Positions 4,869-38,519 of a stretch of DNA of 64,000 bases are shown in pieces. The notes beneath the pieces were generated by a model. That model did not search any database and was not told the DNA's origin. It saw only the letters and a list, made by a program, of their open reading frames with translations. Numbering within the stretch: the stretch's first letter is position 1; each line of letters opens with the position of its first letter. The stretch comes from Levilactobacillus humaensis. Lineage in GTDB: Bacteria > Bacillota > Bacilli > Lactobacillales > Lactobacillaceae. The DNA is taken from assembly GCF_024345185.1 (NCBI RefSeq), contig NZ_BROB01000004.1, positions 1 to 64,000 on the forward strand, read 5' to 3'. The position numbers and the translations under genes are program-made.

Positions 4869-4897
4869 TTGCTATTTTGGAGAATACCTGTTATTCT
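4869..4897 (+). promoter_or_regulatory. Promoter of the cold-shock gene
   Basis: TTGCTA (4869-4874), 17-bp spacer, TATTCT (4892-4897). It implies a leader of about 120 bases before the csp start, typical of cold-shock mRNAs, with a small hairpin around 4940-4965. Confidence 0.6.
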
Positions 4898-5022
4898 ATT
4901 GATAATGTATTTATGGTTCGGAAGTTTTAAAGGCTCGACGTTCTTATAAGAATGGCTCCTTTTTACCCCAGCTTTCAAATGCAAATAATATTGCGCAATG
5001 CGCACACGGAGGTTTCATTCTT

Positions 5023-5226
5023 ATGGAACAAGGTACTGTTAAATGGTTTAACGCTGATAAAGGTTACGGCTTCATCACTTTGGAAAACGGCTCAGACGTG
5101 TTTGTTCACTTCTCAGCTATCAACAGTGAAGGCTTCAAGACGCTTGAAGAAGGCCAACACGTATCCCTTGATGTAGAACAAGGCGACCGTGGCCCACAAG
5201 CTGCTAACGTATCGGTTGTCGACTAA
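5023..5226 (+). CDS. csp: Cold-shock protein (CspA family)
   Basis: A 67-residue single cold-shock domain, an OB-fold RNA chaperone that binds single-stranded RNA and DNA. RNP1 is KGYGFIT (residues about 14-20) and RNP2 is VFVHF (about 27-31). Length and sequence are standard for the family. Ribosome site GGAGG sits 10 bases before the ATG. It forms a monocistronic unit with its own promoter, long leader and strong terminator. Confidence 0.97.
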
Positions 5227-5251
5227 TTTACATTAGCCTAAATCGTGTCGT

Positions 5252-5287
5252 AAAAAAACCACTAACTTCGGTTAGTGGTTTTTTTTC
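5252..5287 (+). terminator. Intrinsic terminator of csp
   Basis: Ten-bp stem AACCACTAAC / GTTAGTGGTT with a TTCG tetraloop and a following T run; the A run before it makes it potentially bidirectional. Confidence 0.92.
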
Positions 5288-18976: not shown

Positions 18977-19408
18977 GTGTGTGAGAATCAGTTCGAGAAA
19001 AATAAAACATTCCTAAGGCGTTACCGACCTTACCAGCGGCAAATTAAACGGTTGGAAGCCAAGCTATATCTGATTGACGATCGGATTGAGTCAACTCACT
19101 CACCCGCAATAACTGGCATGCCTAGCGGTGGACAGCGCCGTGAGTTAGCAGATGACTTGATTCGGCGTGAAGAAATTGAGGAACGTATTAATCGGATTAT
19201 CCATGAGTCACGGCCAATCAAGGCAGAGATACTAGAAGCCATTGACCACATGGACAACTCACTGGAAGCTAATGTTTTAGAGCAATACTTTATCGAAGAT
19301 GTTCAATTGGATAAGATTGCCGATCAGATTGGTTACTCTATTCGACAGGTAAAACGGTTGTATGGTGATGCTGTCAATAAGGTTAACGCCGTTAACCATG
19401 GCACTTAG
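18977..19408 (+). CDS. ArpU/DUF1492-like late transcription activator
   Basis: 143 residues. A coiled-coil-like N-terminal half (RRYRPYQRQIKRLEAKLYLI) precedes a sigma-70 region-4-like HTH (ANVLEQYFIEDVQLDKIADQ then IGYSIRQVKRLYGDAV). This is the organisation of DUF1492/ArpU/RinA-type proteins that switch on late phage genes. It is the last gene before the late promoter at 19409-19466, whose three phased boxes are plausible binding sites. The GTG start has only a modest ribosome site. Confidence 0.82.
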   Translation: MCENQFEKNKTFLRRYRPYQRQIKRLEAKLYLIDDRIESTHSPAITGMPSGGQRRELADDLIRREEIEERINRIIHESRPIKAEILEAIDHMDNSLEANVLEQYFIEDVQLDKIADQIGYSIRQVKRLYGDAVNKVNAVNHGT

Positions 19409-19466
19409 ATGTCACCCAAATGTCACCTCAATGTCACTAGAATGCCGACTATGAGGGTGCTATATT
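19409..19466 (+). promoter_or_regulatory. Late promoter with three phased activator boxes
   Basis: ATGTCAC occurs at 19409, 19420 and 19431, exactly 11 bases apart. TGcTATATT at 19458-19466 is an extended -10 with no recognisable -35, as expected for an activator-dependent promoter. The ArpU-like protein encoded immediately upstream is the obvious candidate activator. Confidence 0.72.
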
Positions 19467-19490
19467 GGTAATATCGAAAGAATGAAATGT

Positions 19491-19595
19491 ATCGCGGTGG
19501 CGCAGTGGGTAGCGTGGATCAGTTTGAGTCCATCAATGTTTCTCCTGACTCAAACTGATTTTGGTGTTGTGAGGTTCGATTCCTTACCCGCGATA
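19491..19595 (+). ncRNA. tRNA-like RNA with 13-bp anticodon stem
   Basis: Acceptor ATCGCGG (19491-19497) pairs with CCGCGAT (19588-19594); D-arm GCGC-AGTGGGTA-GCGT has the invariant A14, GG and A21; T-arm GTGAGG-TTCGATT-CCTTAC has the invariant loop. The anticodon arm, starting at canonical position 27, is a 13-bp stem (G19517 to T19529 with A19548 to T19560) closed by an 18-base loop CCATCAATGTTTCTCCTG. No normal anticodon loop exists and CCA is not encoded. Not a decoding tRNA as it stands. Confidence 0.7.
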
Positions 19596-19607
19596 TAGTT
19601 TGCAGAT

Positions 19608-19640
19608 AAAGCCTTAGCAGATTAATGCTAGGGCTTTTAT
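19608..19640 (+). terminator. Terminator after the tRNA-like RNA
   Basis: AAAGCCTTAGCA (19608-19619) pairs with TGCTAGGGCTTT (19626-19637), followed by TTAT. It would end a transcript of about 170 bases from the late promoter, though read-through into the late operon is possible. Confidence 0.65.
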
Positions 19641-19646
19641 AAAACA

Positions 19647-19686
19647 TATTTACTTTATACGTACAAAAGTATTTACTTTATACGTA
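19647..19686. repeat. Two direct repeats before the HNH gene
   Basis: TATTTACTTTATACGTA at 19647-19663 and again, exactly, at 19670-19686, 23 bases apart. They lie between the small-RNA terminator and the packaging genes; they could be a promoter duplication or terminase/HNH recognition sites. Confidence 0.6.
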
Positions 19687-19705
19687 TAGTATGGAGGTGA
19701 TGGCA

Positions 19706-20035
19706 TTGGTGCCACGGAAGATTAGCGAGCCATTCTATCATGGACGAGCGTGGCAACATACGCGTGCGGCTTACATTAAATCGGTTGGTGGATTGTGTGA
19801 GCGTTGTCTGGCTAAGGGTATCATCAAGCCAGGTTACATTGTGCACCACAAGCATTACATTACTGAGGATAACATCAACGATCCTAATGTCACATTGAGT
19901 TGGAATAACTTAGAATACCTATGTTTTGCATGTCATCAAGAAGAACATTTTGGTTCTGCCGAGGTGACGCGCGATGGATTGAAATTTGATTCGCACGGAA
20001 ACTTGATCCCGGTCGCTGACTCCCCCCGTGGGTAG
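19706..20035 (+). CDS. Phage HNH endonuclease
   Basis: 109 residues. The HNH motif is clear: CERC, then IVHHKHYITEDNINDPN, NLEYLCFACHQEEH, with two CxxC pairs for structural zinc. Small HNH proteins next to the terminase of cos phages assist cleavage of the packaging site. The TTG at 19706 has the best spacing from GGAGGTG (19693-19699); an ATG at 19700 is too near. Confidence 0.9.
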   Translation: MVPRKISEPFYHGRAWQHTRAAYIKSVGGLCERCLAKGIIKPGYIVHHKHYITEDNINDPNVTLSWNNLEYLCFACHQEEHFGSAEVTRDGLKFDSHGNLIPVADSPRG

Positions 20036-20497: not shown

Positions 20498-22213
20498 GTG
20501 GCCGAATATCAAGATAAGAAGGTTCACTACCCAGACGATTACGACCCGATTACTGAGTATTGGAATGCCTTCAAAAATAATGGCGGCGATATTGTGGTTA
20601 GTAAAAAGATTTTATCCACATACCAACGATTGATTCAGAACATGAAAAATAACGCGCTGATGTTTTACTACTCCAATCGCCGCGCCAATCACGCAATGGA
20701 ATTCATTGAGAATTATTGCCGCCACTCTAAAGGAAAGATGGGTGGCCAGCATATCAAGCTGGAACTATGGGAAAAAGCCATGGTTGCGGCCATTTTTGGT
20801 TTCATCGATATTGATGGCAACCGGCAATACCAGCGGGCCGTATTAATCGTTGGAAAAAAGAATGGGAAGTCTTTACTGGCTTCCGCAATCGGTCTTTATA
20901 TGTTAATCGCTGATGGTGAGGCTGGCCCAGAAGTTTACGCGGTCGCCACCAAAAAAGACCAAGCCAAGATTATCTGGAATGAGGCCAAGCGGATGGTACG
21001 TAAGTCGCCGGCGTTAGCTAAGCGGATTCGAGGGCGCGTGGCCGATCTAAGCTCCGAAGAATATAACGATGGTGATTTTAAACCTGTTGCATCTGACACC
21101 GACACATTGGACGGTTTGAACCCAAACTGTATTTTGATGGATGAAATTCACCAGTGGAAGAATGGTGAAGACCTTTATAACATCATGGCGGATGGTGTCA
21201 CAGCGCGAGACCAGCCACTACTGCTGATCACGTCAACGGCCGGTACAATCCGAGAAGATATTTATGACCAAATTTATGATGAAGCAGTTATGACTATCAA
21301 CGGTTACAGTCAAAAGAATGGCTACCGTGATGACCGTTCAATTTTCTTTATTTACGAGTTGGATAAGCGAAACGAGTGGAAAGATTCTGAAATGTGGATC
21401 AAGGCTAATCCTGGACTGGGAACTATCAAAAACAAGCAGACGCTGGCCGAAAAGGTTGCTAAGGCCAAAAAAAATCATCGATTGGTTAAAAACCTGGTGT
21501 GTAAGGAATTTAATATCAGAGAAACCTCAACGGAATCATGGTTGACTTTCGACGAATTGAATAATGAATCCACGTTCGACATTTCAAAGCTGAAGCCACG
21601 TTACGGAATTGCAGGTTCCGACTTGTCACAAACCACCGACTTGACCGCGGCTACTGTAATTTTCCAAGTGCCAGATGACCCGGTTATTTATGTGAAGACA
21701 ATGTACTGGTTACCAGAGGATACACTGCAACAGCGGGCCGAGGAAGATAATATCCCCTATGTCTTATGGCGAGACCAGGGCCGACTGCGGACTAGCCAAG
21801 GAAACAAAGTCTACTACCGCGATATTTTAGATTGGTTTCAGGAAATTGAAGATAAGTACGATATTTATCTGTTTAAAGGCGGCTACGATAGTTGGTCAGC
21901 AACGTACTACGTGAAAGATTTACAGCATCGGTACGGCGAAAAAACGTTTGAGCCGGTTATTCAAGGGAAGAAAACGTTGTCTAGCCCGATGCACTCACTG
22001 GCGGCCGACTTAAAGGCTAAACGCGTAAATTATGGGAACGACCCAATCATGAAATGGTGCCTGTCGAATACCACAGTAGATGTGGATCGAAACGGGAATA
22101 TCCAGCCGGACAAAGGCCATAATCGCCGCAAGCGGATTGATGGTCTGGCCGCGCTGTTAGATGCCTATGTGGTGCGCGACAGATACCTTGATGAGTATTT
22201 GAATGTAATTTAA
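20498..22213 (+). CDS. terL: Terminase large subunit
   Basis: 571 residues of the Terminase_1 family, the ATP-driven packaging motor with a C-terminal nuclease. Visible: adenine/Walker A region AVLIVGKKNGKSLLAS (about residue 110-125), Walker B ILMDEIHQW (about 212), and nuclease Asp regions GIAGSDLSQTTD and FKGGYDSWSA. GTG start two bases after terS. Confidence 0.96.
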   Translation: MAEYQDKKVHYPDDYDPITEYWNAFKNNGGDIVVSKKILSTYQRLIQNMKNNALMFYYSNRRANHAMEFIENYCRHSKGKMGGQHIKLELWEKAMVAAIFGFIDIDGNRQYQRAVLIVGKKNGKSLLASAIGLYMLIADGEAGPEVYAVATKKDQAKIIWNEAKRMVRKSPALAKRIRGRVADLSSEEYNDGDFKPVASDTDTLDGLNPNCILMDEIHQWKNGEDLYNIMADGVTARDQPLLLITSTAGTIREDIYDQIYDEAVMTINGYSQKNGYRDDRSIFFIYELDKRNEWKDSEMWIKANPGLGTIKNKQTLAEKVAKAKKNHRLVKNLVCKEFNIRETSTESWLTFDELNNESTFDISKLKPRYGIAGSDLSQTTDLTAATVIFQVPDDPVIYVKTMYWLPEDTLQQRAEEDNIPYVLWRDQGRLRTSQGNKVYYRDILDWFQEIEDKYDIYLFKGGYDSWSATYYVKDLQHRYGEKTFEPVIQGKKTLSSPMHSLAADLKAKRVNYGNDPIMKWCLSNTTVDVDRNGNIQPDKGHNRRKRIDGLAALLDAYVVRDRYLDEYLNVI

Positions 22214-38445: not shown

Positions 38446-38456
38446 TGTCGCAAGAG
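38446..38456. other. attR core
   Basis: TGTCGCAAGAG, which is the last 11 bases of tRNA-Arg read on the plus strand. Host sequence (the rest of the tRNA) lies to the right. Confidence 0.75.
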
Positions 38457-38519
38457 AGATTCGAACCCTCGACCTACGGTTTAGAAGACCGTTGCTCTAT
38501 CCAGCTGAGCTATTGCGAC
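38446..38519 (-). tRNA. tRNA-Arg (anticodon TCT)
   Basis: On the minus strand: acceptor GTCGCAA / TTGCGAC with discriminator A, D-arm GCTC-AGCTGGATA-GAGC, anticodon arm ACGGT-CTTCTAA-ACCGT (anticodon TCT), T-arm GAGGG-TTCGAAT-CTCTC. CCA is not encoded. Its 3' end is the phage attachment site; the phage reconstitutes it so the tRNA stays functional. Confidence 0.96.

Follow-up and report, generated by a model that had tools for sequence, protein, structure and literature searches.

Among the RNAs with tRNA-like parts described so far, tmRNA has a tRNA-like end without an anticodon, and bacterial tRNA-Sec stacks its acceptor and T stems into 13 bp as 8+5 and carries a UCA anticodon. The pRNA of phage phi29 is a packaging RNA for the terminase. 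Bacillus cereus tRNA-Other, according to PMC3399842, is a tRNA-like RNA that stands outside translation and lies within a larger RNA. The element considered here lies in a 64,000-nt stretch of Levilactobacillus humaensis DNA, the whole of which is called the window.

Folding of window positions 19487-19597 gave -43.2 kcal/mol (z -4.16), and none of 200 shuffles was equally good. Positions 19491-19595, on the plus strand as are all the parts of the element named below, form a tRNA-like fold whose anticodon arm is exchanged for a hairpin of 13 bp and two G-U pairs. The acceptor 5' strand (ATCGCGG, 19491-19497), with the same letters in the genus-mate L249, pairs with the 3' strand CCGCGAT (19588-19594) to give a stem of 7 bp by folding; the 3' strand and the discriminator A together occupy 19588-19595, CCA is not encoded, and both strands are covered by the Rfam tRNA match. 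The D arm, GCGC-AGTGGGTA-GCGT (19500-19515; stem 19500-19503/19512-19515), likewise folds and aligns to the Rfam model, with A14, GG and A21 in place. It runs directly into the replacement hairpin (19516-19561), whose 13 Watson-Crick and two G-U pairs join 19516-19530 to 19547-19561 around a 16-nt loop (19531-19546); folded alone, this arm reached z -3.54 with 0 of 200 shuffles as good, and 14 of its 15 pairs formed. The linker TGGTGTT (19562-19568), its last base being U48 (19568), leads to the T arm (19569-19587; folding and Rfam), which has the loop TTCGATT and a 6-bp stem, GTGAGG/CCTTAC (19569-19574/19582-19587), the same as in locus L258. Sequence and folding bore out the canonical acceptor, D arm (A14, GG, A21) and T arm (TTCGATT) and the replacement of the anticodon arm by a 13-bp stem, as claimed in the earlier note, and its sum of 7+6 = 13 bp for the acceptor and T stems is correct by folding. 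The loop it gave as 18 bases is in fact 16 nt long, as the last G of the UUUCUCCUG that it quoted is paired.

A 5-bp anticodon stem with a 7-nt loop is absent from the element according to ARAGORN, Rfam and folding. Against the Rfam tRNA model (RF00005), positions 19491-19595 scored 30.8 bits and passed the gathering score of 29, with 31 nt jumped in the anticodon arm. A fast-filter Rfam scan of the whole window missed the element, ARAGORN run on the window did not call it, and apart from tRNA nothing in Rfam release 15 matched it better than an E-value of 0.67. It is confirmed, then, that the window holds a real tRNA-like fold with a replaced arm.

The gene upstream (18977..19408, +) encodes an ArpU/DUF1492-like late transcription activator, matching PHROG 36 'transcriptional regulator' at E 4.3e-19; its product scored 22.1 bits with Pfam DUF1492 (cut-off 21.5) and 22.4 bits with sigma-70 region 4, which is under the cut-off of 24.1. 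Three ATGTCAC repeats follow (19409..19437, +; starts 19409, 19420 and 19431, 11-bp spacing) and are probable activator sites. An extended -10 without a -35, TGG then TAATAT (19469-19474), was read by eye at 19466..19474 (+), 16 nt ahead of the acceptor, and the genus-mate L004 has one in the same place, TTGGTAACAT. Downstream of the element lies an intrinsic terminator (19608..19640, +), with a 12-bp hairpin at 19608-19637 (-18.0 kcal/mol) and a short U tract. A generic promoter and terminator scan listed neither this extended -10 nor this terminator. The first gene past the terminator (19691..20035, +) encodes an HNH endonuclease (Pfam HNH, E 5.7e-08), and the gene of the terminase large subunit is found at 20498..22213 (+; Pfam TerL_ATPase and TerL_nuclease). 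A transcript of about 160 nt, starting near 19481, is predicted. The earlier placement of the element as first after a late promoter, with its own terminator after it, is supported, and a similar layout recurs in relatives. Elsewhere in the window, ARAGORN and Rfam identify a tRNA-Arg (TCT) at 38446-38519 (-), beyond the prophage late region and possibly an attachment site, and Rfam matches a cspA thermoregulator at 4878-5285 (+) with 80.7 bits.

The long hairpin of the window was found nowhere else by phage blastn, a DNA search of the genus or viral pattern scans; covarying relatives, described below, exist for the tRNA-like top half. Blastn of 19400-19700 against phages matched only the promoter part, in PM411, and an exact-pattern viral scan with the window's own D arm gave 0 matches; another such scan with this D arm returned one stretch (L247), which was rejected as an ordinary tRNA by eye. 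The DNA search of the genus (35 genomes) yielded the window's own copy, L004 and two weak matches (L005, L006) in which no tRNA-like gene is visible. Related-locus searches gave none when seeded with the activator and 22 loci when seeded with the HNH gene. One of the 22, L048, carries another kind of tRNA-like RNA at about 2203-2278, upstream of an HNH gene; its arm region is irregular and 28 nt long, and a terminator-like hairpin comes after it.

A pattern built on the ATGTCAC repeats matched 23 IMG/VR stretches, which have the promoter region in common and vary after it; by eye, many show only a short hairpin and a T run, then varied sequence. A descriptor search located a tRNA-like RNA in 7 of the 23 and no such RNA in the other 16 prophages with the same promoter repeats, within the stretch examined. 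In four of the seven (L010, L019, L020, L024) the RNA comes after a short hairpin and is some 90-230 nt away from the repeats; in the other three (L011, L014, L021) it lies about 0.8-2.7 kb further downstream. All seven have a leucine-tRNA-like D arm, the T loop TGCAAAT and 7+6 pairs.

A pattern with the leucine-like D arm and the TGCAAAT T loop matched at least 120 viral stretches and 66 genome-contig stretches, the titles of the latter being mostly Bacillota (Lactobacillaceae, Leuconostoc, Weissella, Bacillus, Paenibacillus, Listeria, Clostridia), with some metagenome bins otherwise. Among the matches listed, 193 instances comprised 177 distinct sequences, and dereplication dropped 36 of these, so that 141 copies with different arms were kept. 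The pattern fixes the D arm GGCGGAATAGGTAGACGC, the T loop TGCAAAT, A15 and two T pairs, and leaves the acceptor free. Counted over all 141 copies, with no filter for good pairing, each acceptor position is Watson-Crick in 121-137 copies, all four pair orientations occur at six of the seven positions, and 131 copies have G-C at the remaining one, position 7. All but one of the copies (140) make the sixth pair of the T stem. The base that precedes this stem was left free by the pattern and is U48 throughout (141/141), as a Levitt pair with the pattern-fixed A15 would need. The model R1 was built from 40 sequences drawn from the 126 well-paired copies; its covariation score of 0.70, as against 0.17 for shuffled and at most 0.15 for slid alignments, is biased upward because of that choice, and in the same selected copies 99.7% of cells are paired as compared to 74.8% in shuffles.

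ARAGORN calls none of the 141 copies. CCA is encoded in one of them and, by a crude test, in 50 of 113 ARAGORN tRNAs at the same loci; the rarity of an encoded CCA lends no support to the idea that the 3' end is used as in a tRNA. Ten annotated phage regions have no feature under the family match, and Rfam, which is without a model for the family, returned for four relatives only a chance snoRNA match (E 0.5). None of the papers listed by searches of open-licence PMC describes such a family in its title or the opening of its abstract; a report elsewhere is possible. A short composite query hit 279 phage records, which is no family count because in about 150 of them, from cyanophages, the match was confined to the D arm, in some cases at annotated tRNA-Leu genes. 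A strict scan across the phylum matched 2 of 249 sampled genomes, a lower bound because of its stricter filters and strict E-value. The family seems to be large, structured, present in many phages and unannotated.

In all 141 copies a hypervariable arm takes the place of the anticodon arm. It measures 41-73 nt in this set, a range largely set by the gap limit of the pattern (about 41-71 nt), and up to 152 nt in annotated phages. Of the 141 copies, 89 have a closing helix that stops 2 nt short of the T stem and 80 one that stops 3 nt short of it, against about 31 and 27 by chance; the first nucleotides after the D arm pair less than in shuffles, and in 108 copies the arm has a better fold than five shuffles of its own sequence have on average. 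A subfamily of 19, picked by the motif GTAACGGG, also keeps CCACAC and shows two-sided changes of helix pairs with a few unpaired exceptions. The family arm, then, is not random filler. Several variants were seen alongside. The arms of the genus-mates L263 and L264 (near 1500-1700) hold, by eye, a whole tRNA, that is, a tRNA nested in a tRNA. Armless tRNA-likes of 57-63 nt, with 7-15 nt between D and T arms, occur in L053 (2897), L057 (2256), L060 (1146), L122 (617) and others, and several of them adjoin main-family RNAs. Metagenome phage tRNA-like genes in L079 (4089), L092 (2435) and L127 (1961) have inserts of about 45 nt in the anticodon region which share, by eye, CAGCAATT and then a GC-TTTTG-AGCC-like motif, possibly a small intron. 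L053 is a Tenericutes-host record (OP650937, Hujiaoplasma phage zrk29-2) with an RNA of a subfamily otherwise found in Lactobacillaceae loci, and its host label looks doubtful.

The window element has the 7+6 = 13-bp acceptor/T stack of the family and its replaced anticodon arm, and it opens the late region behind a late activator gene, a trait that is common in the family, not universal. Every letter of its acceptor is shared with L249, and every letter of its T stem, G-U pair included, with L258. In the genus-mate L004/L253, TATATTGGTAACATC is followed by a family RNA, and in the window TATATTGGTAATATC is followed by its own RNA. On the other side, the window element scored 27.7 bits with R1, no better than ordinary host matches (27-33 bits), which from their length of 82-86 nt are taken to be tRNA genes. 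Its D arm, TGGCGCAGTGGGTAGCGT, and T loop, TTCGATT, differ from GGCGGAATAGGTAGACGC and TGCAAAT of the family, and, although U48 is present, position 15 is a G and not the A of the family. The window hairpin sits at the anticodon position and ends 7 nt before the T stem, whereas the closing helix of the family adjoins the T arm at 2-3 nt. The window element is probably a diverged member of the family; it is placed there by position and stem identity, and only as a probable member because its R1 score is not above that of ordinary tRNAs. An independent origin, from an ordinary tRNA, is also conceivable.

R1 matched at 60 bits or more in 14 of the 35 genus genomes (best match in each 63-86 bits), the window's own genome having no match at that level. 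The L004/L253 RNA lies at a distance after its matching promoter similar to that in the window. Of 15 genus-mate upstream ORFs, ten were scanned with Pfam, which recognised DUF1492 in none of the ten, and nine with PHROGs; eight of these nine match a transcription-regulation PHROG, L249 only marginally, and the ninth matches only PHROG 1558, which L249 and L251 also match. The distance from the end of the upstream ORF to the RNA was 43-90 nt in 6 of 9 cases and 335-505 nt in 3 of 9. For the wider family 24 loci were prepared, of which 23 upstream and 22 downstream ORFs were scanned. Upstream, 14 ORFs had no Pfam match, three had regulator models above cut-off (L178, L187, L230), and four more had regulator or HTH models with E <0.001 that fell below cut-off (L186, L191, L208, L219). 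The largest ORF within 3 kb downstream coded for terminase or portal in 11 of 22 loci and capsid in one, for other products in five and for none recognised in five; replication or partition genes, not late genes, lie downstream in two (L201, L209). A terminator follows within 350 nt in 38 of 130 family copies, compared to 19 of 337 random stretches. Family copies also lie among the tRNA genes of large phages (EFDG1, ATCC 8014-B2).

EFDG1, a 147-kb Herelleviridae phage with the RNA in its tRNA cluster, and VEsP-1, a 39-kb phage with the RNA after ArpU, have this RNA gene in common. The shared 209 bp (98.6% identity) begin with the acceptor's first base and stop 4 nt beyond the discriminator, and the compared stretches (8.2 kb of EFDG1, 3.5 kb of VEsP-1) have no other match. 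The two records name the same host genus, Enterococcus. All 20 records with this RNA are Enterococcus phages, VEsP-1 being the only small one; the sharing is known from this one pair. It is the best pointer to how the RNA works, since a gene that travels by itself is likely to act in trans.

The reading that we prefer, tentatively and at somewhat less than an even chance, places the window element, as a diverged member, in a large family of phage tRNA-like RNAs that would act late and in trans, with the exchangeable arm engaging a host factor. Judging from the layout, the RNA would be the first to be transcribed from the activator-dependent late promoter and would end at its own terminator, and read-through would give the late mRNA. 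Its constant part, the acceptor, D and T arms with the 13-bp stack, would be cut and stabilised by host tRNA enzymes, as expected from tRNA biology; RNase P and RNase Z may be what matures the window RNA. The extra base pair and the missing anticodon would, on the same grounds, exclude the RNA from translation. The exchangeable arm would be the working part, and the host factor on which it acts in trans would probably be a target in defence or host takeover. This would explain why the arm is hypervariable yet structured, and why the same gene can be found, as in the one pair above, in phages that differ widely but have a host genus in common; structured, varying arms on a constant scaffold would fit a varying host partner. 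A defence target is suggested by analogy with phage tRNAs that, according to PMC13096335, counter tRNA-cutting systems.

The same source lends some weight to a different role, namely that of a decoy or replacement against tRNA-attacking defences, in which the top half would soak up enzymes that cut or modify the acceptor or T arm. The neighbourhood of tRNA genes fits such a role, since 29 of the 141 copies lie within 1 kb of a same-strand ARAGORN tRNA and the armless tRNA-likes stand beside some copies. However, the element has no anticodon loop to offer to an anticodon nuclease, and a structured hypervariable arm would be needless for a pure top-half decoy, so that we consider this role unlikely.

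Could the element instead work in cis, as a leader whose processing or attenuation signal determines where the late mRNA begins or when it is made, much like a switch composed of promoter, short RNA and terminator? Its place as the first feature after the promoter, with a terminator behind it, is what such a leader would show, and in several relatives this place is taken, by eye, by a short hairpin with a T run and lacks the RNA. The occurrence of the family among the tRNA genes of large phages and in other places, and the one copy common to two phages without its flanks, argue against it, and we regard a leader function as quite unlikely.

The earlier note had proposed that the loop serves as an antisense element, which would pair with the Shine-Dalgarno and start regions of host or phage mRNAs. 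Its complementarity claim stands in so far as the 16-nt loop exactly complements AGGAGAAACATTGATG, which has Shine-Dalgarno and start-codon spacing (AGGAG-N8-ATG), and a site with two mismatches precedes a 398-aa ORF that is transporter-like by eye. Beyond the loop itself, the claim is not supported, as no excess of pairing was found in its own genome, in the 141 relatives or at 126 own phage loci. The genome of the window has 16 matches with at most three mismatches, one of which is the loop itself, against 12 for a reversed control; the Shine-Dalgarno complement occurs in 1 of 141 relatives, against 2.1 in shuffles, and is thus not enriched; the arms tested against the 126 own phage loci gave a mean excess of 0.003 (s.e. 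0.085), and 4 of these loci reached a level expected once in 40 or less often, close to the number that chance would give. An antisense regulator is accordingly a very unlikely reading.

A role in DNA packaging by the terminase, like that of the phi29 pRNA, is scarcely probable: it would suit the 11 of 22 loci with terminase or portal as the largest downstream ORF, but the RNA was not seen in most close-relative stretches and is present in the EFDG1 tRNA cluster, where no terminase is annotated in the 8.2 kb shown. Equally hard to credit is a decayed tRNA gene with an inserted hairpin, which would leave recognisable tRNA remains in a form found only once, as in the window, but would not be expected to keep all seven pairs of the acceptor, all six of the T stem and the 13 Watson-Crick pairs of the hairpin intact, or to have strongly covarying relatives, as the element does.

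To return to the trans-acting RNA that we prefer, a broader form of it, which we rate as doubtful, would give the phages of Bacillota a common, modular platform for RNA effectors. Its constant tRNA-like scaffold, with the 13-bp stack, would be processed by host tRNA enzymes and kept out of translation, and the structured, interchangeable domains mounted on it would be directed at host targets, most likely defences, and be swapped between unrelated phages of the same host. If the arms act on host factors, each arm is a ready means of finding such a factor, and a further kind of player enters the question why phages carry tRNA clusters. Even a function in cis would provide a handle on the start of late transcription in ArpU/RinA-type phages.

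Compared with the known systems, the RNA resembles species 1 and 2 of phage T4 (rnaC, rnaD), which are phage-encoded, adjoin tRNA genes and are annotated as small stable RNA; species 1 also has a T-arm-like end, CCGGG-TTCGAAT-CCCGG. The T4 region gave no family-model match and, by descriptor, no 7+6 stack. With tmRNA the RNA has in common a tRNA-like end without an anticodon, and the Rfam tmRNA models did not match the window or four relatives. B. cereus tRNA-Other, compared by description only, differs in keeping a Trp anticodon and in being chromosomal. Bacterial tRNA-Sec is alike in its 13-bp stack, which in the window is composed of 7+6 pairs and goes with no anticodon loop. From tRNA (RF00005) the window element differs in lacking the anticodon arm, in its 13-bp rather than 12-bp acceptor/T stack and in being silent to ARAGORN; what it shares with tRNA is the acceptor, the D and T arms, U8, A14, the GG of the D loop and the T-loop motif.
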